64,000 nucleotides of DNA, taken from NCBI RefSeq assembly GCF_009735625.1, contig NZ_CP046244.1, positions 3,422,909 to 3,486,908 of the forward strand, given 5' to 3'. This stretch comes from Moorella glycerini. Its GTDB lineage: Bacteria; Bacillota; DSM-521; Neomoorellales; Neomoorellaceae. The notes below the pieces were generated by a model that was not told the DNA's origin, made no database searches, and saw nothing but the letters and a program-made list of their open reading frames with translations. Positions 21,414 to 35,652 of the stretch are shown piece by piece (the first letter of the stretch is position 1; each line of letters opens with the position of its first letter). Made by a program: the position numbers and the translations under genes.

Positions 21414-22541
21414 TCACGTGTCGGGTCTCGCTATGAACCGCGGGTCACTAGGCCACTTATCTGGATTGTTCAGTTTAAATAAATCGGTGTACCCCACCAG
21501 GGCTACCTTGCCATCCCGGAAGGGAGTCCGGTACAGGTCTAACTGCACTTGCACATCTTCTTTGGCCGGCCTTACAACCATCTTGTTCCTGTTAACTTCG
21601 TCGGCAGGGAGATATTTTAATACTTCAGGTGTTACCGGACCCAGTACCTTCTTTGTTACAGTGCCGTCTTTGGCAATTAATTCTACTGTCGCCGAATTGG
21701 CTGTGACCTCGGTAACTTTGACGGTATAATCGCCTAAGGTAGCCGTCTCTCCCGGGCCTAACACCATTTCCACCGGGTCTTTTTCAGTTAACAGCATCCA
21801 GTTAATAGCCCCGGTGCCGAACTCCTTGACTTTCGCTCCTCCGGTAGTCACTTCATCGACTACCAGATAGGATTGGCCGCTGGTGGCAACTGGAGAATCG
21901 TAATATTCAACCTGCCAGTTCTGGCCTTCTTCTCCGGGTAAATAAGAGCCCGCGTGTTTACTGGTACCGTTATTCAAGGTACCGGTGGTTATGTTTATAA
22001 GTTTTGCATCTGTGGCAACCGGGAAGGAGTGTCCGTAGTAGTTGCCCGATGGTTTCAATATCTGGAACTCGGCTTTGGGAGCTTCAAAACCGTCCCCGTC
22101 AAGGCTGATGGACGATAATTCTAAAACCTTCGTCCCGTCACCAAGGGGCACCGAACCGCCTTTTTTGACTTCCACATCTTTGATCACATCAAACCGGGTA
22201 CCGTTATCGACAAGGGTATAAATCTTCCCCAGGATAAGTACCTTATCCCCCTGCAAAACCTTGGCCAGGTTGGTCCGGGTGGTATAGTACAATCCTGAGG
22301 GCGGGATAATAATCTTCCCGTTTTCGATCCGGCTCTGCCTGATCACCAGCCCTTCCTGCAGTCCTATCTTCCTCACAAATGTGTCGACGCTCATGTTCTT
22401 AAATCCGGGAAAACTGGCCACAAAAGCGGCGTCTTTGGCCGGCGCTTTCATCAATACCCGGCCCTCAGCCGCAAAGCTGGGGGTTATAGCCGTAAACATG
22501 ATGGCCAGTATGCCCAGCAGGGCTAATAGCCTTTTACGCAT
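21414..22541 (-). CDS. Exported protein of unknown function (S-layer-like look), ends at in-frame TGA
   Basis: 375 residues from ATG at 22541, preceded by GGAGTGCAAGGA. A clear signal peptide (KRLLALLGILAIMFTAITPS, cleavage near SFA-AE) is followed by a Gly/Val/Thr-rich beta-type region with no membrane helix. Stretches such as LGPGETATLGDYTVKVTEV recall S-layer or Ig-like modules. The TGA stop at 21414-21416 is followed in the same frame by another 105 codons, so the full protein may have been about 480 residues. It lies 126 bases after a lipoprotein gene and close to the molybdoenzyme operon. Surface location is likely; the function is not evident. Confidence 0.7.
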   Translation of the reverse strand: MRKRLLALLGILAIMFTAITPSFAAEGRVLMKAPAKDAAFVASFPGFKNMSVDTFVRKIGLQEGLVIRQSRIENGKIIIPPSGLYYTTRTNLAKVLQGDKVLILGKIYTLVDNGTRFDVIKDVEVKKGGSVPLGDGTKVLELSSISLDGDGFEAPKAEFQILKPSGNYYGHSFPVATDAKLINITTGTLNNGTSKHAGSYLPGEEGQNWQVEYYDSPVATSGQSYLVVDEVTTGGAKVKEFGTGAINWMLLTEKDPVEMVLGPGETATLGDYTVKVTEVTANSATVELIAKDGTVTKKVLGPVTPEVLKYLPADEVNRNKMVVRPAKEDVQVQLDLYRTPFRDGKVALVGYTDLFKLNNPDKWPSDPRFIARPDT

Positions 22542-22684
22542 TCCTTGCACTCCTTTCATAAATAATTGGTTTTAGGAATGAAAATTTATTTTCCAAACTA
22601 TTTTCACCCCCCTGGAAGCTAAAGTAATAATTCAGGTAATTTCACCTCCTTTTAGGCAGCGCTAAATTTTATCTTCTACTCCTT

Positions 22685-23185
22685 CTAGCACCCGCAATCT
22701 TCCTCTTCAGAGGCAGGGGAAGAAGGGGTTTTACCAGCAGTACCAGGGGCGCTGCCATTGGTTTGTGTTTTGGGGGAAGTTGTAGTTGAAGGAGCTACCG
22801 CTTTAGTTTCATCTTTTGTTGGCATAGAAGGTGTCTCCTTGGCTCCTGTTTGGGGTTGAGTAGAAGCAGTTCCAGCTTGAGTTGCCTTTTTTGTTGAGGA
22901 GGAAGTTGTCGCAGGTGTTGATTCTACCTCGCCTTTAGGAGTACTACTAGTTGTTGTAGATTGGGTTTTATCTTCTGTTTTGTCAGCTGTAGAGGGAGCG
23001 GAAGTTTGCTGCCCTTCATTTTTAGTGGCAGTAGAAGAGGGGGAATTGGTTGAATCTGATTGGGTTACCGCCGGAGAATTTGGCTGTCCCTGAGGCTCAG
23101 CCGGACTTTTTTTCCCCCCGCATCCGGCCAGAACCAGGCCGGTAATAACTAAAATGGCAACAACTGTAATAACCTTTTTGCTCAT
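22685..23185 (-). CDS. Ser/Thr/Pro-rich lipoprotein with Cys-terminated tail
   Basis: 166 residues, ATG after AGGGAGGATGGAATA. The signal ends in the lipobox LAGC, so it is lipid-anchored outside the membrane. The rest is low-complexity (Ser, Thr, Pro, Lys, Gln repeats such as SSTKKATQAGTAS) and probably unfolded, ending in the acidic, Cys-bearing tail EEEDCGC. It follows the molybdoenzyme cytochrome b gene with a 93-base gap on the same strand and might be co-transcribed. A spacer, wall-linking or metal-binding role can only be guessed. Codon use in the repeat region is more AT-rich than in its neighbours. Confidence 0.75.
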   Translation of the reverse strand: MSKKVITVVAILVITGLVLAGCGGKKSPAEPQGQPNSPAVTQSDSTNSPSSTATKNEGQQTSAPSTADKTEDKTQSTTTSSTPKGEVESTPATTSSSTKKATQAGTASTQPQTGAKETPSMPTKDETKAVAPSTTTSPKTQTNGSAPGTAGKTPSSPASEEEDCGC

Positions 23186-23278: not shown

Positions 23279-23980
23279 TTACACATTTGTATTGTTAGCC
23301 AGGTAATAATCTTTTTTGAGGGATTTGCCTTGTGCCGCAGTTATCTCTTCATACCATAGGGCATGGTGCTCCAGGGCAAATTTTTGGGAGACTGTCCCCC
23401 ACAACATACCTTTGATACTTTCCCGCGAGTTCGGATGTAACAAAGCCAGGTAAATATGGCCCAACAAAACAGTACCAATTATCAGGGCACCTGCGGAGTG
23501 CAATGTATAAGCTAAAAGCAAGGTTTTTCTAGAAAACCCTTCGGAGAAAAGCATAATCCAGCCGCTGGCCACCATTACCACAAAACTTGCCATGGTCAAC
23601 AGGGAATTGACTTTCTCGCCACCATTAAATTTTCCCTGTCGGGGTAATTTAACTTTAAGTCCAAAAAATTCACGGGGAAAGGCAAACAGGAAGGCTACAT
23701 CATTTCGGGTCCAGTTAAAACAGGCTTTAATCCAGGCCAGAAAGGTTTTATGAGTACCAAGTAATAGAATTACTAGGGATAAAAACGTAAATATAAAACC
23801 CATCCCATGGTGAATATTCCTGAAAGCACGTAAAGTATCTGTTCCCAGGAAGCTCCCATAGCGGCTAAAGACCAGGGCCAGGCCGGTAATTAAAAGAACA
23901 ACACAGGAAATGGCGTGGGTCCAGTGACCAAGGCGTTCGGCTAAATTAAACCGCTTAACCCTCTCGGCATTACTCTTCAT
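23279..23980 (-). CDS. Cytochrome b membrane subunit of a molybdoenzyme (FdnI/FdoI-like)
   Basis: 233 residues, overlapping the ferredoxin gene by 11 bases. It begins KRFNLAERLGHWTHAISCVV, with His in the first helix, and has four membrane helices with further His residues (NIHHGMGF, YTLHSAGALIIGTVLLGHIY) suited to two b hemes. This is the formate-dehydrogenase-N gamma type that passes electrons between the quinone pool and a four-cluster ferredoxin subunit. Here it would anchor the enzyme encoded upstream. Length and helix count are normal for the family. Confidence 0.88.
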   Translation of the reverse strand: MKSNAERVKRFNLAERLGHWTHAISCVVLLITGLALVFSRYGSFLGTDTLRAFRNIHHGMGFIFTFLSLVILLLGTHKTFLAWIKACFNWTRNDVAFLFAFPREFFGLKVKLPRQGKFNGGEKVNSLLTMASFVVMVASGWIMLFSEGFSRKTLLLAYTLHSAGALIIGTVLLGHIYLALLHPNSRESIKGMLWGTVSQKFALEHHALWYEEITAAQGKSLKKDYYLANNTNV

Positions 23981-24671
23981 CCCGCTTCCCTCCCTTAAAG
24001 GCGTTTATAGCCGTACCAACTACTACTGCTGCGGCGGCAGCTCCCATCAGGGCTTTACCGGCAGGATGAACGATGTTTTTCCACAAGTTTATCAGTCCTT
24101 CTTTTTCTAAATCCTTGGGAAGAAGGGAGCGGTCCAGGCCTTCTGCTAGAACATAAAAAGTACTTGTGCCAGCAACTTGAAGGGCCTTATGTTCGCGGAT
24201 ATACTGGTTAATATAGCTTTCCGGGTCATTTAGATCTCCAAAAATGCGGGCATGGGAGACACAGGTGCTCACGCATACCGGCACCAGACCGGCTGCCAGC
24301 CTGTGGTAGCAATAGGTACACTTGTCTACTATCCCGGTTCGGGCGTCTTTGAAACGCGCTCCATAGGGGCAGGCGGCTATGCAATAACCGCAACCTATAC
24401 ACTTATCTGGGTCGACTAGCACCACGTCTCCCTCAGCATGGTAGGTTGCCTGCACAGGGCAGACCTGCTGGCAGGGGGCCGCCTGGCAATGGTTACACAG
24501 GGTGGGTATTTTTATCTTTGTAACCATGGGGTAATCACCATAATCCCTTTCCCAGACCCTGGTTCGCCATTCGCCGCGGACAACCCCGTTTTCCATCTTG
24601 CAGGCAACCATACAGGCATCACAGCCAATGCATTTACGTAAATCGATTACCATGCCGTACTTTACGCTCAT
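23970..24671 (-). CDS. Four-cluster [4Fe-4S] ferredoxin subunit of a molybdoenzyme
   Basis: 233 residues, ATG after GAGGTAGGCAA. Four Cys groups are visible: CIGCDACMVAC, CNHCQAAPCQQVC, CIGCGYCIAAC, and the paired CTYCYHRLAAG/CVSTC. This is the DmsB/FdnH/PsrB arrangement that wires the molybdenum site to the membrane subunit. The C-terminus carries a hydrophobic helix (AGKALMGAAAAAVVVGTAIN), as in FdnH, which would tie it to cytochrome b. Genes before and after encode the chaperone and the cytochrome. Confidence 0.92.
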   Translation of the reverse strand: MSVKYGMVIDLRKCIGCDACMVACKMENGVVRGEWRTRVWERDYGDYPMVTKIKIPTLCNHCQAAPCQQVCPVQATYHAEGDVVLVDPDKCIGCGYCIAACPYGARFKDARTGIVDKCTYCYHRLAAGLVPVCVSTCVSHARIFGDLNDPESYINQYIREHKALQVAGTSTFYVLAEGLDRSLLPKDLEKEGLINLWKNIVHPAGKALMGAAAAAVVVGTAINAFKGGKRDEE

Positions 24672-24689: not shown

Positions 24690-25370
24690 TTAACTCTGAA
24701 AATTATTTTGATAGTCAGCATCTACCCAGGCTGAACTTATTTTAGCGATTTCCCCAAAGAAGCCCCCGGCTGTCTGGCAGGCTAATAAAGCATAGTCATT
24801 GATCCACCTGCCCAGATGCTGTTCTAAAAAACGCTGCTGCCATTGCCGCCATTGCAACCCTTGCTGGAGACGGTTTGTTTTATAGGCCTCCAATTCGGCA
24901 AAACTTAAGTAGGCCATGAATGCCAGTTCAAAACCCAGGTAGTCCGCAATTGGGATTTCTTGTAAGGGTTTAAATATGTCCAGCTTCCAAGGATCAAAGC
25001 GGGATACTTGATAACAATCCCTTACATGTAATGTTAGCGGTCCATTCAAAGGTCCAAAACGTATTCTATTGCCGTTTAATTCCCTCTCTACGATGGCAGA
25101 TTCAAAGGGAGGTACATACTTAGCGGATACATTCACAAAAAAGCGGTCATAAAACTCTTGTTTTATTTCCCCCATATCGATATTCACGGTGACAGTTAAA
25201 CCTTCAGGGATGTACAGGTCATCTTGCAGCAGTTTAACCATTTTTGCCAGTTCTTCTATATAGATGGCGGTTGGTTCTTGTAAATAGCCCCTGGCCAGCA
25301 ATTCGTATGTACGCGCCCGGATTTCAGTTGTTGCCGCAACCTCAACATCTAAGTCCTGGTAAAACGGCAT
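24690..25370 (-). CDS. TorD/DmsD-like molybdoenzyme chaperone
   Basis: 226 residues from ATG at 25370 (MPFYQDLDVEVAATTEIRAR) preceded by GAGGTGAGACG, ten bases after the catalytic subunit stop. All-helical, with the family features RARTYELLARGYLQEP near the start, YVPPFESAIV, and YLGFELAFMAYLSFAELEAY. These cytoplasmic proteins bind the twin-arginine signal of the catalytic subunit and hold it back from export until cofactor is loaded, which fits the Tat signal of the neighbouring subunit. Confidence 0.85.
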   Translation of the reverse strand: MPFYQDLDVEVAATTEIRARTYELLARGYLQEPTAIYIEELAKMVKLLQDDLYIPEGLTVTVNIDMGEIKQEFYDRFFVNVSAKYVPPFESAIVERELNGNRIRFGPLNGPLTLHVRDCYQVSRFDPWKLDIFKPLQEIPIADYLGFELAFMAYLSFAELEAYKTNRLQQGLQWRQWQQRFLEQHLGRWINDYALLACQTAGGFFGEIAKISSAWVDADYQNNFQS

Positions 25371-25380
25371 CGTCTCACCT

Positions 25381-28300
25381 CTAAACCCTGACAATTTTAT
25401 AACGCCCACCATTGCGGGCCGGTACCCCTGTTGCCAGATCACTCAGGCCGAACACTTTTTGTAAAGACTTATCCAGTGGTGAAACTTTGCCTGCCATAAT
25501 ACCGCCGCCCCGGGAGGCATCGCCGGCAACTTTCTTCTCGCCAACTTGATAACCCCTGGCACCATAGGCCCAGTGGCCATAACCGAAGTAAACGTTAACG
25601 GTTCCCCGGGCTATCCCAGGCCGTACCAGCAACTCACCTGTAACTTCACCGCCAGTTGCTGCCACCAGTTTTACTTTAGTACCTGTTTTCAGGCCCAGGA
25701 CCCCTGCATCCAGGGAATTAATTTCGATATAATTGGTACTGCTCAAGTCCGTTACTACCGGTGCGTTGGCAATTAAAGAGATTGAGCGCAGTTTTGCTTT
25801 GCAATTTACCAATTTAAAAGGCCATTCATCTGGATTAAATGCTTCATCGACAGGTTTACCATCAGCAAAAACTTCCGGCTGCCAGCAAGCAGTACCTGCG
25901 AAAAATTCCCCCGTCATGGAATTACGACTGGTAGCCACCGTCTCATTGTAGATGGTAATTACCCCAGTATAGGCATCTTTTTGCCTTTCACCTTTCCAGT
26001 CTGAATCGTAAGGAGCAAACCTGCCGCCCCGGGCCATAACATAAGCCGCCCTGGGCCACTCTTCATTTTTGATTGCCCCGGCAACATTGAAAAATACTTT
26101 ACCAAATTCCTGTAGTTTATATTCTTCAGGACTTATTTCAGGAACCGGGTTTTCATCATAAGCCACATTGACAACCGCTTTTAAGAAATAATCCTCAGGG
26201 TTATTAAGGGGATAACTGTTACCTGTAACATCTTTGATGGCGTCGTCGCCAAAACCGGGCAGGCCTATTTTTTTAGCTACATCAATGATGTAAGTCTCAA
26301 AACACGGATACCTGCCTGGACCGATCTCCTGCATAGGAGGCCGGACTACCGGCCAGCGTATAGAAGTGGCCTTAATCCCTGTATAGCCATAGATTGAAAG
26401 CAACCCCCAGCTTTCGTACTGAGTAGTATCAGGAAGGACATAATCAGCAACTGCGGCCACCTCCCCCATAAAAGGATCGATGGCAATAATCAAGGGGATG
26501 CGCTCAGGATTCTTAAATTCATTTATTATTTCTTCCCTGGCGGCACCTGGGGTGGCGAAGAAGAGATTGGCCATCCAGCTAACTAATATTTTTGCTTTAT
26601 AGGGATACTCGTTAATAATGGAGTAGACAGCCTGATTATCCATACTGCTATTTAAAGGATACCAGGGCAATTTGGAGGGATAAGGGTTTTCGCCTTTTTT
26701 AACCTTCTCCTGGTACTCGGTGGTATACTCATATGGAAAATCACGGCTTAACCTCACACCGGAACGCCTTGGTGCATCGCTGATAGTATTTAGATCATAG
26801 CGTGGCCCCCGGCCAAAAGCAGCGTACCCTTGAGGGTCTTTGATCATGCCTCCACGTAAATTCCAGGAACCCATCAAAGCCGACAGCAAATATAGGGCCA
26901 TGCCGGTATAAAACCCATTGGCCGCCGCGAGATTGCCCATCCCATCCACGCCTACTTTATACCCATGGCTGGTATATTCCCGGGCCAGTTCCTCTATTTT
27001 CTCCTTAGGAACGCCACAGATGCGGGCATAATCTTCCATAGAATACCTGTAAGCATTTTCTTTAAGAATATTCAGGGCCGTGGTGACTTTAATGCTCTGG
27101 CCATCATTATTTTGAATTACCCCGGAAAAGAAAAGTTCACCTGCTTCCACTCCGGTATTTTTGGCTGGTTGTCCCGTAACCCTGTCAATGACTATGTATT
27201 CATCGCCGTCATTGGTCCACCCCAGGTCTTCCGGGCGCAGTAGTTTACGATAATTAGGGTGCCCCGGATCGATGATTACCAGGTAAGTGCTGTTGGTATA
27301 GCTATAATAACCTTCTTTTTGCGCCGCAGCCATATTGGGTATGGCCAGGTATTTATAATCCAGACTATTGTTGGCAAACATCCAGCAGATCATGGCCATG
27401 ATCAAAGCGCCGTCAGTAGTAGGCTTAATGGGCACCCATTCCGCCTTTTCTCCCGGCCCTACCGCACCGCCAGACATCACCGGGTCGACCACCGCAAATT
27501 TTAATTTCCCCTTAACTTTTGCAGCTGTTGTTCTCCTAGCGATAAGCTGCATCGGCCTGCCGCTAAACCCCGGAGAAGCTCCTATAAATAAGACAAATTC
27601 GCTGTTCAAAACATCGGGCTTGAAAAACGCCCCGCTATTGTTTGCTACTGCCTTCCAGGCAGGACTTTTGGCCCCGCCTCAGGTAGAACCATGGGTAAAA
27701 TAGTTGATAGAGCCAAAAGCCCTCATAAATCTTGAGGCGAAGACCATCCTACCATCATCCCTGCCGCCAAAAAACACCAGCTGGTTAACTTTAGGGCCCA
27801 GTTCCGGCCGGTTGGGATCAATCAGGGTATTAAAATCCCTGACATGCCTCAAGCCTTCAATTTCCTGATTCTCGCCGATTTCGCTAAATAACTTCCCTCC
27901 TTCAATAGTTTCGTTAACAGCCTCTTCCCAGGTAATTGGTTGCCATTTACCTTCACCCCTTTTGCCGGCCCTTTTGAGTGGTACTAACAAACGCATGGGA
28001 TCTTGATGGGCCTGAAGAGTCGCTAATCCTCTAGCACATAAAGTGGCCCTCGCGGTATTACCTTTTCCCTGATAATTGCTGAAGGCCAGATATGCTTCGG
28101 TAAGGGGAGCTTCGTATGGCAGATGTGGTTCACTATTAAGGGGATTATAAGGGTTGCCAAATACCTGTAAAATCTCACCCGTGCTGGCATCAATTTTCAC
28201 TCTATTTCCGCAACAACTATAACACCCCAGGCACGCACTGTGACGCATAATTATACCTGCTGCCGGCATAACCTGGCCGTTCTTGGTGTTTATTAAAGCT

Positions 28301-28446
28301 TCCGGCTTCTGGCCGCTCTGTTTTTGCGGCAGTTCCGGGAAGGGCTCGGGCCTTCCAGCTGCACGAGCAGCCTGCTCCAGCCCTAATCCTCCTGCCCCGG
28401 TAATTCCCGCCGCTAATAATAATTTCAAAAACTCGCGCCGTCGCAA
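25381..28446 (-). CDS. Molybdopterin oxidoreductase catalytic subunit, probable selenoprotein (TGA = Sec256)
   Basis: One frame of 1022 codons runs from TTG at 28446 (GGTGAGGTG upstream) to 25381, broken only by TGA at 27681-27679. The N-terminal part has a twin-arginine signal (RRREFLKLLLAAG), a [4Fe-4S] site (CLGCYSCC, then ATLCARG), and ends FGSINYFTHGST. The frame resumes GGAKSPAWKAVANNSGAF, FIGASPGFSGRP, and so on through the MopB domains and a C-terminal pterin-binding domain. The TGA falls where this family has the Cys (Sec in some formate dehydrogenases) that binds molybdenum or tungsten. A hairpin right after it fits a bacterial SECIS. The length matches TtrA/FdnG-type enzymes (about 1020). 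The residue after Sec is Gly, not the His of formate dehydrogenases, so a tetrathionate, polysulfide or oxyanion reductase is more likely. Exported by Tat, acting outside the membrane. A nonsense mutation is the less likely alternative. Confidence 0.82.
27643..27681 (-). promoter_or_regulatory. Candidate bacterial SECIS element after the in-frame TGA
   Basis: Beginning 17 bases after TGA on the minus strand, CTGCC (27662-27658) and GGCAG (27652-27648) pair around the loop TGGAA, which starts 22 bases after the TGA and has G among its first two bases. Both points match the usual description of bacterial SECIS hairpins. An alternative helix GGCGGG/CCTGCC is also possible just before it. Confidence 0.6.
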
Positions 28447-28803: not shown

Positions 28804-29574
28804 TTACGGCGCAGCAACCTTATTAACCAGGCTCCCTATATTTTCCACCCTGATCTCAATGGTATCGCCTACCTCCATGGGGCCTACTCCTTCCGGAGTA
28901 CCGGTCATGATTATATCTCCGGGTAAAAGGGTCATCACCTGGGAGATAAAACTCACCAGGAAGGGCACAGAAAAGATCAGCTGGGAGGTGCGGCCGTCCT
29001 GCTTCAGTTCGCCGTTTAAAAAAGACTGGACGCGGAAGTCAGAGACGTCTATCCCCCGCACAATATAAGGCCCAAGGGGTAAAAAAGTATCGAAGCTTTT
29101 GGCCCTGGTCCACTGGCCGTCTTTCTGCTGCAGGTCCCGGGCCGTAACGTCATTCCCAACGGTATAACCGAAGATATACTCCCCAGCTTCTTCTTCCTTA
29201 ACATTATGGGCCTCCCGGCCGATGACCACTACCAGCTCCGCTTCGTAATCAAGGCGTTTGACCATGGGCCAGTAAATTATATTTTCATTAGGGCCAATAA
29301 CGCTTGTCGGCGGTTTAATAAAGATAACCGGTTCTCCCGGCACCTCCATAGTCAATTCGGCAGCATGGCGCCGGTAGTTCAAACCCACGCAAACGGCCTT
29401 GCTGGGCTGGCAGGGTGACAGCAGCCTGACTTCGTTTAAATTATATTGCTGTCCATTTTCCCGGTACGCCCCAAAAATATCGCCTTCCAGGGCGATAATC
29501 ATGTCCCCTTCTAAGCGACCATAGAAGACTCCTTCACCCACAGTAAAGCGGACAAATTTCTCGACTTTTTCCAT
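28804..29574 (-). CDS. Fumarylacetoacetate hydrolase family protein
   Basis: 256 residues, ATG after AGGAGGCAACAT. Core FAH motifs are clear: CVGLNYRRHAAE, then IFIKPPTSVIGP, the metal ligands in DYEAELVVVIG, GYTVGNDVTARDLQ, KSFDTFLPLGP, and the C-terminal LLPGDIIMTGTPEGVGPM. The family uses Mg2+ or Mn2+ to cleave C-C bonds of 2,4-dioxo acids, hydrate or isomerise 2-oxo-enoates, or decarboxylate oxaloacetate. Last gene of the operon with a second FAH protein, an isocitrate-type dehydrogenase and the Tct transporter, so it probably handles a transported di- or tricarboxylate derivative. The exact reaction is not readable. Confidence 0.88.
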   Translation of the reverse strand: MEKVEKFVRFTVGEGVFYGRLEGDMIIALEGDIFGAYRENGQQYNLNEVRLLSPCQPSKAVCVGLNYRRHAAELTMEVPGEPVIFIKPPTSVIGPNENIIYWPMVKRLDYEAELVVVIGREAHNVKEEEAGEYIFGYTVGNDVTARDLQQKDGQWTRAKSFDTFLPLGPYIVRGIDVSDFRVQSFLNGELKQDGRTSQLIFSVPFLVSFISQVMTLLPGDIIMTGTPEGVGPMEVGDTIEIRVENIGSLVNKVAAP

Positions 29575-29607
29575 ATATGTTGCCTCCTCTAAGCTTTAAA
29601 CCTTATT

Positions 29608-30573
29608 TTAAAAAGAAATATCTTCTTCGGCTACAATTTTGTTGCTTAAGCGTCCAAGGCCAGTAATTTCAATAGTGCAAATATCCCCTACTTGCATATA
29701 GGTTGGAGGTTTACGATCTTTTGCCAGTCCACCCGGCGTGCCAGTGGCTACAATATCTCCCGGTTGCAACGTAAAGATCCGGGAGAGGAAAGATACCAGG
29801 GTAGGTACATCATAAATAAGTTCTCGTGTATTGGAATCCTGCAGTAAACGCCCGTTGACCCAAAGTTTAACATCTAGGTTGCCCGGGTCAGGTATTTCAT
29901 CCCTGGAAACAAGGTAGGGGCCACAGGGGGCAAAATTATCAAAGGTTTTACCCCTGACTACCTGTTTGTCCAGGGCCGTTAAGTCACTGGCGCTGACATC
30001 GTTAAAGATCATATAGCCAGCTACATAATCAAAAGCCTTTTCAACAGGTACGTTGCGGCCTTTTTTGCCGATGACGAAAGCCAGCTCTGCTTCGTAGCCC
30101 AGGCACTGGGTCATTCTCGGGTAGATGATCGGGTCATCCGGCCCGCAAAGGGCATTTTTGTATTTGGCAAAGATCCGCGGCTCAGGGGGGATCGGCAGGC
30201 CTGTCTCCCGGATAAAATCATGATAATTATGGCTCAGGCACACTATGCGCATGGGGTTCTGCACCGGTGCCCCCAGTTTAACTTCGCTGCGCTGGAAGAT
30301 CAGGCGTTTACCAGAAGAGCTTAGATCCTCCAAACTAAAATCCTGGACCTCATCAAGGGCAGCCCGGGCAGCTTCCCAGGAGCGGCCACCGCCACTTAAA
30401 AATTCAACGCTATCGGGAGGAACAAGGGCCTGGGCCAGTTCTTTAGCGCGTTGTACTCCCTTACGGGTCAGATGGGTTTCATAGGCGTAGTTCAGATCTA
30501 CTACCCGTTCCTCATTGGTCACGGCCCCTAAGCGGTAATCCCGCTCACCAAATTGATACATTACTAGCTTCAT
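29608..30573 (-). CDS. Fumarylacetoacetate hydrolase family protein (longer form)
   Basis: 321 residues, ATG after AAGGAGGAAATATGTA. It has the long N-terminal domain (YQFGERDYRLGAVTNEERVV) and the full FAH core: CLSHNYHDFIRETG, the acidic metal site in CLGYEAELAFVIGKKG, MIFNDVSASDLTALDKQ, KTFDNFAPCGPYLV and QPGDIVATGTPGGLA. It is only distantly similar to the shorter FAH protein encoded next, so they are unlikely to be a recent duplication. The pair may perform successive steps such as isomerisation and hydrolysis or decarboxylation of a 2-oxo acid. Confidence 0.87.
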   Translation of the reverse strand: MKLVMYQFGERDYRLGAVTNEERVVDLNYAYETHLTRKGVQRAKELAQALVPPDSVEFLSGGGRSWEAARAALDEVQDFSLEDLSSSGKRLIFQRSEVKLGAPVQNPMRIVCLSHNYHDFIRETGLPIPPEPRIFAKYKNALCGPDDPIIYPRMTQCLGYEAELAFVIGKKGRNVPVEKAFDYVAGYMIFNDVSASDLTALDKQVVRGKTFDNFAPCGPYLVSRDEIPDPGNLDVKLWVNGRLLQDSNTRELIYDVPTLVSFLSRIFTLQPGDIVATGTPGGLAKDRKPPTYMQVGDICTIEITGLGRLSNKIVAEEDISF

Positions 30574-30603
30574 TACATATTTCCTCCTTATGAATAAAAA
30601 TAA

Positions 30604-31605
30604 TTAATTTAGCGCTGCAATGATAGCCGCGGTCATCTCTGCCGTCGTGGCCCTTCCGCCCAGGTCCCCGGTAAGAACCTTACCTTCCCTGAGGACCTTT
30701 GCGACGGCCATTTCAATAGCCCTTGCTGCTTGAGTTTCGCCTAAGTAATTAAGCATCATTGAGGCTGTAAGAATTTCCCCCAGCGGGTTGGCTATACCGC
30801 GGCCGGCTATATCAGGAGCAGTGCCATGAACAGCCTCGAAAAGGGCTACCTCCGGACCAAAATTACCGCCAAAGCCCAAACCCAAACTACCTGCCACCCC
30901 GGCAGCCAGGTCAGCAAGAATATCGCCGTAAACATTAGGAGCTAAGATAACATCATAATCCAGTGGAGCTTTAACAAGCTGAAAACACATATTATCGATC
31001 ATCCGGTCGTTAAATTCTAGTTCAGGAAACTCCGCCGCCACCCGTCGCGCACTCTCCAGGAAAAGACCATCGGTAAGCTTAAGGATGTTAGCCTTGTGAG
31101 CCACTGTAACTTTGCGCCTGCCCATCCGGCGGGCATAGTCCATGGTAAAGCGGGCAACTTGCTCCGAAGTAGCCCTGGTAACAAATTTGAGGGCTACAGC
31201 CGCATCAGGGCCGACTTTCTGCTCTGCTCCTGCAAAAGTATCCTCTGTTGCTTCACGGACAACGATTATATCCACCCCTTTATAGGGAGAAGGAACGCCG
31301 TCAAAATAGCGGGCCCGCCGCACCTGGGCAAAAAGTCCCAGTTTACTGCGCAAGGTTACGTTAGGACTTGCCCACCCCCTGGCAACCAGATTGGTTAGCG
31401 GTCCCTTAATGGCTACTTTGTTGCGCTTAATTGAAGCAATGGTATCTTCCGGTACTGCCTCACCCACCATTTCTACTGCCATTTCTCCGGCCAGCATTTC
31501 TTCCCACTCGATGGCTATCCCTGTCGCCTCAACCACTTGGCGTGCTGCCGGAATCACTTCCCGACCAATGCCGTCACCAGTAATCAACGTTACCCGATGA
31601 GCCAT
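30604..31605 (-). CDS. Isocitrate/isopropylmalate dehydrogenase family protein
   Basis: 333 residues, ATG after GGGGAGGTAAAATT. Beta-decarboxylating dehydrogenase motifs: LITGDGIGREV, the substrate-binding Arg set around LRSKLGLFAQVRRARYF, VVREATEDTFAG, the Lys in KANILKLTDG, DYDVILAPNVYGDILADL and the cofactor loop FEAVHGTAPDIAG. The last resembles NAD-dependent isocitrate and isopropylmalate types. It oxidises a (2R)-hydroxy di- or tricarboxylate to a 2-oxo acid with loss of CO2. With a Tct transporter and two FAH enzymes, the substrate may be a tricarboxylate, malate or tartrate. Leucine genes are not nearby, arguing against leuB. Confidence 0.85.
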   Translation of the reverse strand: MAHRVTLITGDGIGREVIPAARQVVEATGIAIEWEEMLAGEMAVEMVGEAVPEDTIASIKRNKVAIKGPLTNLVARGWASPNVTLRSKLGLFAQVRRARYFDGVPSPYKGVDIIVVREATEDTFAGAEQKVGPDAAVALKFVTRATSEQVARFTMDYARRMGRRKVTVAHKANILKLTDGLFLESARRVAAEFPELEFNDRMIDNMCFQLVKAPLDYDVILAPNVYGDILADLAAGVAGSLGLGFGGNFGPEVALFEAVHGTAPDIAGRGIANPLGEILTASMMLNYLGETQAARAIEMAVAKVLREGKVLTGDLGGRATTAEMTAAIIAALN

Positions 31606-31619
31606 AATTTTACCTCCCC

Positions 31620-32057
31620 TTACGGTAATGGAACCTTTAAGACCTGGCCAAATAAATAATAGGTAGCTAGAGAATAACCTGCTGCTGCGCTAATTAAAAC
31701 CCACCAGTTGCGTACACCCCCCAGAAGCATTAAGGCTATAAGAAAGAAAGTAGTAGTTAAGAGATAACTGGTCGCATCAAAAAGCAGGATATAAATAATA
31801 CTAAAAGCCAAGGTTCCAATAATGTACAAAAGCATTTTGCCTGCTTCTTTTTTATTTTCTTTTTTTATTTCCCCCTTTCGCCAGGACAATATTAATTGAG
31901 CAACGGCAAAAGCAAAAAGCAGGACACTGACAAGGCGGGGATAGAAAGCAGGCCCGGGATCAACGGGATTTATTTCTTGTTTAAAGGTTGCCAGGGAATA
32001 AAAAATTATCGCCAGTATAGCCATTCCCGCGCTAATACCCATTTCGCCATAACGCAT
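31620..32057 (-). CDS. tctB: Tripartite tricarboxylate transporter, small membrane subunit TctB
   Basis: 145 residues with about four membrane helices and a charged loop (SWRKGEIKKENKKEAGK) between the second and third. The pattern INPVDPGPAFYPRLVSVLL after helix 1 is the standard TctB lead. TctB pairs with TctA to form the membrane part of a Na+- or H+-driven carboxylate importer. It follows tctC and precedes the dehydrogenase gene. Because tctA is broken by an insertion sequence, the complex may not form. Confidence 0.85.
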   Translation of the reverse strand: MRYGEMGISAGMAILAIIFYSLATFKQEINPVDPGPAFYPRLVSVLLFAFAVAQLILSWRKGEIKKENKKEAGKMLLYIIGTLAFSIIYILLFDATSYLLTTTFFLIALMLLGGVRNWWVLISAAAGYSLATYYLFGQVLKVPLP

Positions 32058-32118
32058 TTTGATACCACCTGCCTTATCCAGGCCGGCAGCCAGTCAAGCT
32101 GCCGGCCTTTAGCAACTT

Positions 32119-33138
32119 TTACTTTTCCTTAACTTTTTGCAGTAACTGGCCAATTAGTTCATAGTCCTTGCGAGCGTAAGCTGCAAAGTCATCGGGACCC
32201 ATAAAACCATCAGGCTGCTTATTTTTGGCCATGTACTCTTTAAAACCGGGTTCAGCCACTGCTTTCTTTATAGCATCAACTATTTTGGCTTTAACATCGG
32301 AAGGTAACCCTTTTTTTGCTATAAAACCACGGTATTGGGTCATGGTAATATCGTAGCCTAACTCCTTAAGTGTAGGCACTTCCTTCATGTGTTCCATACG
32401 CTGGTCACCGCTTATGGCCAGAACCTTTATCTGACCTGCTTCGACATATTGATTTACCGTGGCTGGAGCCGTACTGATTACCTGAACGTTGTTGCCTAAC
32501 AGGTTAGTTACCGATTCCGATCCTCCTCCAAACGGAACCCATGTTATCTCGATACCGGCTTGTTCCGCTAACTGCAAAATCATTAAATGTAAAGCCGAAC
32601 CTGTTCCCTGGCCGCCTATTTTAAGCTTGCCAGGATTTTTCTTGGCAAAATCAATTACATCATGCATTGTTTTAAATGAACTATTCGCTTTAACTGCTAT
32701 GGCGTAAGGCTCTTTCTGGACGTTGGCTATGAACTCAAAATCGTCAATAGAGAAATCCTTTTTGAGTTCCGATTGTAATGCTGCTATCTGGGAAGCTGTA
32801 ACTGAAGCTATAGTATAACCGTCTGCAGGTTCAGCTTTCAGAGCAGCAAACATCACTCCACCCCCGCCGCCTGGCTTATTAACAACAACCATGGGTTGAC
32901 CCAGATATTTTTCGGCATAACGTGCCACTTCCCGGGCCATAACGTCGGCGGGAGAACCCGCGGTGGAAGAGTTAAGTACGGTTATAGGTTTGTTGGGGAA
33001 GGTAGAGGCAATTTTTCCAGTTTCTTTGGATGCTTCTTTAGGCGCCTCGGCAGGTTTGGAACCAGATGAACAACCTGCCAGTAAACTTGCAGCCAGTACC
33101 AAAGAAACAGTCAATCCCAGCCATCGCTTTTTTAACAT
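32119..33138 (-). CDS. tctC: Tripartite tricarboxylate transporter substrate-binding lipoprotein TctC
   Basis: 339 residues, ATG after GAGGGAATAGAAC. A lipoprotein signal ends LLAGCSSGSKPAEAP. The mature part shows TctC features: FPNKPITVLNSSTAGSPADV, VVNKPGGGGGVMFAALK, KIGGQGTGSALHLM, WVPFGGGSESVTNLLGN. It captures a carboxylate outside the membrane and hands it to TctA-TctB. In the operon it follows the broken tctA. The family as a whole covers citrate, terephthalate and many other carboxylates, so the ligand cannot be named. Confidence 0.9.
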   Translation of the reverse strand: MLKKRWLGLTVSLVLAASLLAGCSSGSKPAEAPKEASKETGKIASTFPNKPITVLNSSTAGSPADVMAREVARYAEKYLGQPMVVVNKPGGGGGVMFAALKAEPADGYTIASVTASQIAALQSELKKDFSIDDFEFIANVQKEPYAIAVKANSSFKTMHDVIDFAKKNPGKLKIGGQGTGSALHLMILQLAEQAGIEITWVPFGGGSESVTNLLGNNVQVISTAPATVNQYVEAGQIKVLAISGDQRMEHMKEVPTLKELGYDITMTQYRGFIAKKGLPSDVKAKIVDAIKKAVAEPGFKEYMAKNKQPDGFMGPDDFAAYARKDYELIGQLLQKVKEK

Positions 33139-33240
33139 GTTCTATTCCCTCCTCTAGTTTTTTAACCACGCTTTATCTTATTTTTTACTTAATTTCATAA
33201 TTTATTTCATGTCCCCCACCTCCCCTTTAATTGGCAAGCT

Positions 33241-34137
33241 TTAACGGCCTGCTTTCTTCATTCCGCGAAAGAATTGATAGCCTATTGAGATGACTGAAAT
33301 CAATAAGATTATTGACGCTATAGGCCTGCTTATAAATATAGCTAAACTTCCATCAGAAATAATTAAAGCCCGACGAAAGGAGGTTTCGATCATCTCCCCC
33401 AGGACGACTGCGAGAACTACGGGAGCAACAGGAAAATCATACTTCCGCATGATATACCCTATAATTCCAAACAGTAACGCTAACCACACGGTAAAAAGGT
33501 TGTTTGATTCCGCATAAGCAGCAAAAATAACCATGGCTAAAACTATGGGAGTTAAAATATTTTTCGGAACGGTTACTACTTTTGCCCAAAGTTGCGTACC
33601 CATTAAACCCATAGCTAACATCACAATATTGCCTACAAGCAAACTGGCAAATAAGCCATAAACCAGATCAGGTTCTTTGACAAAGAGCAATGGTCCGGGC
33701 TGTAATCCCTGAATTGTAAAAGCGCCTATTAAAATAGCTGCTGCTGCCGAACCTGGTATACCTAAAGCCAGGAGGGGAACTAAAGCTCCACTGACAACAG
33801 CATTATTGGCCGCTTCCGGGGCGGCAACTCCTTCCAAAATGCCGGTACCAAACAGTTCTGGATGTTTAGAAGCCCGTTTTTCTTCGCTATAAGCGATGAA
33901 AGAAGCAACAGCTTTCCCAGCCCCGGGAACTATACCAATTAAAAAACCTATAACTGTTCCCCTCAACATAGCCATATGGGTACTTAAATATTCTTTGATA
34001 GTAGGCAGAGCTCCGGAAATTTTTTGATAGGTAACGCTTCCCTCACCTATTTCTTCCATGGTCATCAATACTTCAGAAATAGCGAACAGGCCAATTAAAA
34101 CTGGTATCAGGGGAATACCCTCAAATAAATTCATACT
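33241..34137 (-). pseudogene. tctA: tctA, 3' part (interrupted by IS110-family element)
   Basis: Codons 195 to the stop of the large permease TctA. After the insertion point the frame continues SMNLFEGIPLIPVLIGLFAI, then the diagnostic [20 protein letters not shown] and [20 protein letters not shown], and ends in helices and GMKKAGR. An in-frame ATG inside the element (34170) would give a fusion start, but this fragment lacks the first six or so helices. A working permease from it is unlikely. Confidence 0.9.
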
Positions 34138-34405
34138 AACCGGCCATGTCTGGAAGGCACAACCAATCATGAAAATAGAAAGAAGTGATTACAAACATCT
34201 GATTTTCTGCTACATTGGACTTATCAGGGACAAAGGTTGAGTACATTTTGATGGTATAACCTCGAGTACTAACCTAACCTGATTGCCTTTGAGCACAGCC
34301 AATTGTCGCCCCTTGTTCTTAAGGACTTGGGAACAGCACGGGTGTTAAACTTCTTACTTTCTCGGGCAATCATCCCTGAAATCCAATGAAGCAGGAGGAG
34401 TTCTT
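34138..34405 (+). other. IS110 leader, possible bridge-RNA region
   Basis: In the IS110 group a structured guide RNA is made from the noncoding end upstream of the transposase. This 268-base leader is of suitable size and place. The octamer GTGTTAAA at 34342-34349 also spans the right junction (35781-35788), as a right-target guide would. I could not find a matching left guide, so the RNA is only a candidate. Confidence 0.35.
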
Positions 34406-35652
34406 ATGCAAGACATCTTGGAAACCTGCTGTGGTTTGGACGTCCATAAAGATACCGTGGTTGCCTGCCTATTAAAAGGCAATATTGGCGAGGAACCGAC
34501 AAAAACCATCCGCACCTTTTCCACCCTTCTGCCCGGGCTTGATGAACTGAAAGCCTGGCTGGAAGCAGAGAACTGCCGCCATGTGGCCATGGAAAGCACC
34601 GGGGTTTATTGGCAGCCTGTATATAACGTCCTGGAAGAAGCCTTTGACGGCAGTATGGTTTTGATTGTTGCCAACGCCCGGCACATGAAAAACGTTCCCG
34701 GTAAAAAGACTGACATGAAGGACGCTGAATGGATAGCTACCCTTTTACGCGCCGGATTGTTGGAAGGAAGTTTTATCCCCTCCAAACCTATCCGGGAACT
34801 CCGTAATCTAACCCGGTACCGCAAAAGTATTATCGAAGAGATTGCGTCGCAAAAGAACCGCATCGAAAAGCACTTACAAAGCTGCGGTTTCAAGCTCTCC
34901 ACCTTCCTCACCGATATCTTCGGGGTATCGGGCCGGGCGATTATGGATCACCTTTGCCGTCACGGGAAGATATCCGCCCGGGAAGTAGAGACTTTGGTAA
35001 AGGGTCGTGCCAAGAGTAAGCTTCAGGAAATCAAGCAGGCTGTCAATGGCAAAATGGATGTTCACCAAAGGGAGTTCCTCAAGCTTTTGCTGGGCTGGCT
35101 GGATCAGCACTACGAGCATCTTCGATTGGTAGAGCAAAAGCTGGAGGAAAAACTTAATCAATACCAAAGACAACTGGAACAACTGGACGGCATCCCGGGG
35201 ATTGACAAAACCGCTGCCGCCGCTATTCTGGCGGAAATTGGCATCGATATGAGCCGCTTTAAAACTGCGGAACATATCTGTTCCTGGGCGGGCTTAAGCC
35301 CCGGCAATAATGAAAGTGCAGGAAAAAAAAGTCCACTCGCACCACCCACGGTAACACCTATCTAAAGCGAATTCTTTGCGAAGTTGCCTGGTCCATCACC
35401 CGGGTACGCGACAGCTATTTATCGTCCTGGTACTGGAAGGTCAAGCAACGCCGCGGGGCCAAGAAAGCCCTTATCGCTTTAGCCAGAAAGCTCCTGGTAA
35501 TCATTTACAACTTACTAAAAAACGGTACAGACTACGACGAGACTGCATTTGAGAAAGCCAAACAAAAGCAAGAAAGGTTTCGGATCAAGAAAATTATTGC
35601 TGAGGCCCGGAAGCTGGGACTCGAGGTAAGGGAAGTCGCCCAGGTCGTTTAA
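34406..35652 (+). CDS. IS110-family transposase, needs -1 frameshift
   Basis: First part 34406-35365 (ATG after GGAGGAG). The N-terminal RuvC-like domain has the acidic residues in CCGLDVHKDTVVAC, AMESTGVYWQPV and KKTDMKDAEWIATLL. The C-terminal transposase_20 domain (LDGIPGIDKTAAAAILAEIG) leads to the catalytic-Ser region NNESAGKK. At that point eight A residues (35333-35340) occur, and a -1 shift reads on as KKSTRTTHGNTYLKRILCEV to a stop at 35652, giving about 415 residues, the normal length. The unshifted frame ends 12 codons later. Either frameshifting or slippage makes the full enzyme, or the copy is dead. Confidence 0.85.

Follow-up and report, generated by a model that had tools for sequence, protein, structure and literature searches.

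A putative selenocysteine ligand in a TtrA/SrdA-like molybdenum/tungsten oxidoreductase of Moorella glycerini

On the minus strand of the window (the whole stretch of DNA that was analyzed, 64,000 nucleotides from Moorella glycerini), a long frame for a molybdoenzyme is interrupted by one in-frame TGA. What does this codon specify, and what kind of enzyme does the locus encode? In the reading favored here, which we hold to be about 85% probable, the frame encodes the catalytic subunit of a membrane-anchored Mo/W oxidoreductase in which UGA is translated as selenocysteine (Sec), with selenium replacing the Cys ligand of TtrA/SrdA-type enzymes. The evidence comes from sequence, namely the frame, the aligned column, the relatives, the hairpin, the Sec genes and the operon. 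The features discussed are collected in Table 1.

Table 1. Positions of the features of the locus (window coordinates unless a locus is named) and the evidence for each.
Feature	Position	Strand	Evidence
Predicted catalytic subunit, Mo/W-bisPGD oxidoreductase, TtrA/SrdA-like group, with in-frame TGA	25381..28446	-	Translation; TtrA model, 781 bits; PF00384, PF01568
UGA codon, putatively read as selenocysteine 256	27679..27681	-	Cys in ArrA, PsrA and 37 homologues; UGA in four orthologues
SECIS-like hairpin CTGCC-TGGAA-GGCAG	27648..27662	-	Hairpin equidistant from UGA in five Sec genes
Putative twin-arginine (Tat) export signal LRRREFLKLLLAAG...	28357..28446	-	Read from sequence
TorD/NarJ-type chaperone	24690..25442	-	PF02613, 48.4 bits, above cut-off; the true start may lie downstream of the listed GTG
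Electron-transfer subunit, four-cluster [4Fe-4S] type	23970..24671	-	TtrB-like, 202.7 bits; PF13247
Cytochrome b561 membrane anchor, formate dehydrogenase gamma-like	23279..23980	-	PF01292, 85.6 bits; TIGR01583, 108.6 of 115.85 bits
Second, divergent tRNA-Sec gene	L108:2827-2923 (G391); L109:8587-8683 (G353)	operon strand	ARAGORN

The interrupted frame and its family

With TGA read as U, the catalytic gene was translated as a single frame of 1021 codons and a terminal stop. Its sole break is the TGA at codon 256, which lies between ...NYFTHGST and GGAKSPAW.... The start codon is TTG, and a GAGGTG-like ribosome site lies ahead of it. Under the standard code, the gene falls into two ORFs of 255 aa (27679-28446) and 742 aa (25381-27609). 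The original prediction had described a 1022-codon frame broken only by TGA, which agrees with 1021 residues plus the stop, and had expected automatic annotation to split the gene, as the mechanical ORF list in fact does. Its flanking peptides, coordinates and hairpin sequence were likewise borne out by translation and sequence inspection; the strand, which it did not state, is minus.

The catalytic subunit is a member of the DMSO reductase (MopB) superfamily: the molybdopterin domains PF00384 (66.4 bits) and PF01568 (30.6 bits) both scored above cut-off, and the C-x2-C-x3-C motif of the first [4Fe-4S] cluster is present. When the protein was compared with solved structures using phmmer, residue 256 fell opposite a Cys both in ArrA (6cz7) and in PsrA (2vpw), residues that we take to be the Mo-ligating Cys193 and Cys173, respectively. 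This is the metal-binding position at which the TGA had been predicted to sit. An alignment of 42 homologues was also inspected, comprising the window gene, four orthologues and 37 Cys homologues (including a plasmid-borne TtrA). Column 256 was UGA in five rows and Cys in the remaining 37, as foreseen for relatives lacking Sec, and nothing else occurred there. The orthologues are from G007 (same genus), Fuchsiella alkaliacetigena (L039/L041), and G353 and G391, two genomes of one genus that look like Desulfitobacterium. Their proteins are ca. 50-56% identical to that of the window (56-63% before the TGA and 48-52% after it), the TGA falls in the identical column, and the RRxFLK-type N-terminus recurs in all four. 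Each of the five genes has exactly one in-frame TGA in its coding part, with no other stop and no frameshift. Judged from this alignment, the sharing of the column (TGA kept in four orthologues, Cys in 37/37 others) is far beyond chance. An in-frame UGA at a redox or metal-ligand position that is Cys in homologues is one criterion for a bacterial selenoprotein, and UGA 256 appears to encode Sec, with selenium ligating the metal where the relatives use Cys.

The best-scoring named model was TtrA (NF011567), at 781.4 bits against an equivalog cut-off of 1750. TtrA proper was rejected on the basis of that score, the presence of Sec instead of Cys, and an anchor of the cytochrome b561 type rather than TtrC (NrfD). 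Identity with ArrA was also rejected (99.6 bits; NCBIfam equivalog cut-off, 1600). Of the TtrA/Psr-type kinship originally proposed, the TtrA side was retained, this being the best family, and the Psr/Phs side was not.

A maximum-likelihood tree (LG+C20, IQ-TREE, midpoint root) placed the five Sec rows in one clade (100/100) within the Cys family. Its sister group is formed by Cys enzymes from the Desulfitobacterium-like family, and both clades together stand beside TtrA of Klebsiella/Pseudomonas and an Azospirillum homologue. With Cys in every other row, the simplest account is that Sec replaced Cys once. The Sec enzyme was found in 2 of the 11 species searched of the window's genus; this sparse presence and the scattered hosts suggest that it passed horizontally between lineages. 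Cys relatives (34-35% identical) are encoded in the window genome as well, and candidate molybdoenzyme matches numbered 83 in G353 and 58 in G391. Two phylum-level scans returned the same five Sec genes, class- and order-level scans revealed no Sec member beyond the five, and a scan of IMG/VR gave no relative.

The ligand stretch reads approximately HGxxUGG[AS]xxPA in the Sec clade, HGAYCGxxYR in TtrA, and HGG[IT]CGxSRRxA in the Cys sister clade. Since the hairpin includes the codons for Pro-Ala, the RNA may account for part of the Sec-clade motif. At positions 498-527, residues that vary little or not at all among the Cys rows are altered in the Sec clade, which makes a different substrate plausible.

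Operon and probable function

The catalytic gene is followed on the same strand by genes for the TorD-like chaperone, the 4Fe-4S subunit and cytochrome b561. The chaperone ORF overlaps the catalytic gene, and a chaperone is conserved in all Sec operons. The 4Fe-4S subunit, which has an apparent C-terminal membrane helix, is 48-56% identical across the orthologous operons; the anchor is 55% identical to its G007 counterpart. The same four genes are present in G007, and an NrfD anchor replaces cytochrome b561 in G353 and G391, which indicates a probable exchange of the anchor between lineages. In Fuchsiella (L075:11716-12315), the catalytic, chaperone and FeS genes were found, with no membrane-anchor gene among the listed adjoining ORFs. 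Upstream of the operon in G007, G353 and G391 are genes for a periplasmic binding protein, a Cache-type histidine kinase and a sigma-54 response regulator; no such trio was seen adjoining the window's operon. The gene content indicates an exported, membrane-anchored oxidoreductase complex that is probably quinone-linked.

The surroundings of the operon were also surveyed. It is followed by genes for a Ser/Thr-rich, exported-looking putative lipoprotein ending in EEEDCGC (22685-23185, minus) and an exported-looking protein of 381 aa with a weak S-layer match (21414-22559, minus). Upstream (28804-34170, minus) lie two fumarylacetoacetate-hydrolase-family genes, an isocitrate/isopropylmalate dehydrogenase-like gene and parts resembling a tripartite tricarboxylate transporter; this region looks like an unrelated catabolic cluster. 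An IS110-type transposase-like ORF (34406-35365, plus) has a C-terminal end that is seemingly cut short or frame-shifted. In G007, the Sec operon and the two-component regulators are separated by a gene for a DUF4277 protein (L074:11997-13727), which is probably a transposase; this hints at mobility of the Sec locus.

We infer from the sequences the selenium at the metal, the export, the topology, the electron path, the direction and the substrate of the enzyme. Its assembly and action may be pictured as follows. SelB with Sec-tRNA(Sec) would read the UGA, aided by the downstream hairpin. The TorD-like chaperone would help to load the cofactor into the catalytic subunit, and the folded protein would be exported via Tat. 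The 4Fe-4S subunit and cytochrome b561 would connect the enzyme to the menaquinone pool. Its most likely role would be that of a terminal reductase of a chalcogen oxyanion (of the tetrathionate, thiosulfate or selenate type), an assignment that we consider somewhat better than an even bet. Tetrathionate and selenate are reduced by characterized enzymes of this lineage, as is arsenate by those of archaea (PMC10100899). Reported use by Fuchsiella covers nitrate, selenate, AQDS and trace thiosulfate (PMC9387241), and D. hafniense converts selenate to selenite, without a Thauera-type enzyme having been found (PMC3306737). As a best guess, selenate and a sulfur oxyanion would both fit, with neither singled out.

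The cytochrome b561 anchors of the window and G007 resemble those of quinone-reducing dehydrogenases, and the reaction direction of such enzymes is not readable from sequence. The enzyme might accordingly oxidize a donor (e.g. a reduced sulfur compound) and pass electrons to menaquinone instead of acting as a terminal reductase. The closest characterized relatives, however, reduce tetrathionate or selenate (PMC10100899), and in the Desulfitobacterium-like copies the anchor is NrfD, the type found in Ttr; we regard the oxidizing direction as unlikely, albeit the most serious competitor. The locus had been predicted to encode a Sec-dependent respiratory reductase of another kind than formate dehydrogenase. 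The selenocysteine and the non-formate parts of that statement stand; “reductase” is likely, and the anchor is cytochrome b561 rather than NrfD/TtrC.

A second competitor would be a drifted, FdnG-like Sec formate dehydrogenase feeding the quinone via a gamma-like cytochrome b. The Sec ligand, the FeS subunit with its C-terminal helix and the FdnI-like cytochrome b561 do reproduce the FdnGHI layout. Against this, the formate dehydrogenase models scored poorly (TIGR01553, 36.7 of 814.2 bits; TIGR01591, 66.5 of 666.25 bits), Gly, and in no case His, follows Sec in 5/5 Sec rows, the tree groups the Sec enzyme with TtrA, and the anchor of G353 and G391 is NrfD. On the scores, the Gly and the tree position, formate dehydrogenase was rejected as very improbable, in accord with the original placement of the enzyme outside that family.

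Decoding of the UGA codon

Assignment of UGA 256 to Sec was examined further through the RNA downstream of the codon and the decoding machinery of the hosts. The first base of the hairpin is number 17 after the TGA, where it had been predicted, and each of the five Sec genes has a hairpin at an equal distance 3' of its UGA. In the bSECIS model, the upper stem has 4-16 bp, the apical loop has 3-9 nt and starts 16-37 nt after the UGA, and a G occurs within the first two loop positions (PMC13188914). The five hairpins fit this geometry: their stems are 5-7 bp, their loops are 3-5 nt and start 19-22 nt after the UGA, and G is found in the first two loop positions. In the common register, 85.7% of the pair cells form; shifting the partner by 1-3 bases lowers this to 29-49%. 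Two pairs exhibit compensatory changes.

The statistical weight of the hairpin is moderate, as it is only modestly better than synonymous shuffles (P=0.033 for the window, P=0.0003 for Fuchsiella, and 0.10-0.23 for the other three). This shuffle test is itself weak because two of three Cys paralogues reach P=0.04-0.08. The bSECIS free-energy threshold was taken as ≤ -7.5 kcal/mol. The window hairpin had an energy of -7.1 kcal/mol alone and -8.1 kcal/mol with the first 12 nt held open, as in the ribosome; folded freely, the window RNA prefers another helix, and the target hairpin forms when those nucleotides are open. For G353 and G391, the hairpins were at -5.3 to -5.9 kcal/mol, and free folding over 45 nt gave -9.8 and -7.1 kcal/mol.

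The presence of sel genes had been proposed as a check, and the window genome contains all of them: a tRNA-Sec gene (selC, anticodon tca), along with selB (388.6 bits), selA (626.6 bits) and a selD of the Sec type (405 bits), all above cut-off. The selD gene (L102, C1:34016-34942) is a selenoprotein gene itself, with one in-frame TGA. In all four orthologue genomes, selA, selB and selC were above cut-off.

Two selC genes each are present in G353 and G391. The main copy adjoins selA and selB and is identical between the genomes (93/93). The second is positioned ca. 0.1 kb downstream of the Sec operon's anchor gene on the same strand; relative to the main copy it has 10-11 differences in 93 positions, and the G353 and G391 versions are separated by 5. 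ARAGORN classified it as tRNA-Sec in both. Its location next to a selenoprotein operon offers independent support for UGA decoding and suggests that the operon and this tRNA may be kept together. Two tRNA-Sec genes have been noted in D. dehalogenans and D. hafniense (PMC5330540, PMC3306737); the significance of multiple copies has been called unclear (PMC5330540).

Two other accounts of the codon can be weighed against these data. A pseudogene or sequencing error, in which a Cys codon has mutated to the stop TGA and a fragment is the only product, would require just a one-base change and would agree with an annotator's view of two separate ORFs. Yet five diverged genes (the orthologues ca. 50-56% identical to the window's) share the same TGA column without another stop or frameshift, conservation persists 3' of the TGA, the neighboring genes are intact, and selC is linked to the operon in two genomes; the nonsense mutation was rejected as extremely improbable. 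Reading by a suppressor, or as Trp, would put another residue at the metal site and is just as implausible, given Cys at this column in all relatives, the full Sec machinery, and the fact that Trp is not expected as a metal ligand.

Significance and relation to known systems

Superfamily surveys list a Sec ligand only for formate and formylmethanofuran dehydrogenases, and a Cys ligand for the TtrA/SrdA, PsrA/PhsA and ArxA/ArrA lineages (PMC7331816, PMC10100899). One of these (PMC7331816) restricted Sec to FwdB, FdhG and FdhH homologues whose neighboring residues, such as His, aligned too, and would thus have missed a TtrA-like Sec enzyme. A 2026 catalogue of 119 prokaryotic selenoprotein families includes, among these enzymes, only the formate and formylmethanofuran dehydrogenases (PMC13188914). 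No earlier report of Sec in a TtrA/SrdA-like enzyme was found in the open-access literature. If the Sec reading is true, the division of Mo/W ligands by lineage in the DMSO reductase superfamily is not absolute, and the operon suggests why Desulfitobacterium carries a second tRNA-Sec gene (PMC5330540). The Cys and Sec relatives within one genome (G353, G391) would make the role of selenium at a Mo site testable outside formate chemistry. A broader proposal, to which we give slightly less than even odds, is that these genes constitute a separate selenoenzyme family in the TtrA/SrdA lineage, having one Cys-to-Sec origin, a spread among distant Bacillota, its own tRNA-Sec in some hosts, and a substrate that differs from those of the known Cys members and requires the selenium ligand.

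Among known systems, TtrA (Klebsiella plasmid pCRE-243_1) is homologous over the full length, 35% identical, and on an adjoining branch of the tree. A Tat signal, the first FeS cluster motif and a TtrB-like partner are shared. TtrA has Cys where the window enzyme would have Sec, its HGAYCGxxYR corresponding to HGSTUGGAKSPA; the gene order is A-TorD-FeS-anchor in the window and B-C-A in the Ttr system, and cytochrome b561 takes the place of TtrC. The Desulfitobacterium-like Cys paralogue clade (L057, L058, L044, L082-L087, L091) is sister to the Sec clade and 41-44% identical. Where examined (L078, L079, L081), genes for TorD, an FeS subunit and a two-component system lie alongside, as does an NrfD-type anchor. 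This clade differs in its Cys ligand and the surrounding HGG[IT]CGxSRRxA, and no linked selC was seen. SrdA of Bacillus selenatarsenatis, compared by its published description only, has been assigned to the same TtrA/SrdA lineage (PMC7331816, PMC10100899); it has export and a respiratory role in common with the window enzyme as predicted here, and is listed with TtrA as Cys-ligated (PMC10100899). With FdnG/FdhF and FwdB, the window enzyme would share Sec as the Mo/W ligand at the equivalent position of the fold, and its FdnH- and FdnI-like partners are as in Sec formate dehydrogenases. The formate and formylmethanofuran dehydrogenases carry UHxP at this site (PMC13188914), in contrast to UGG[AS] in the Sec clade.
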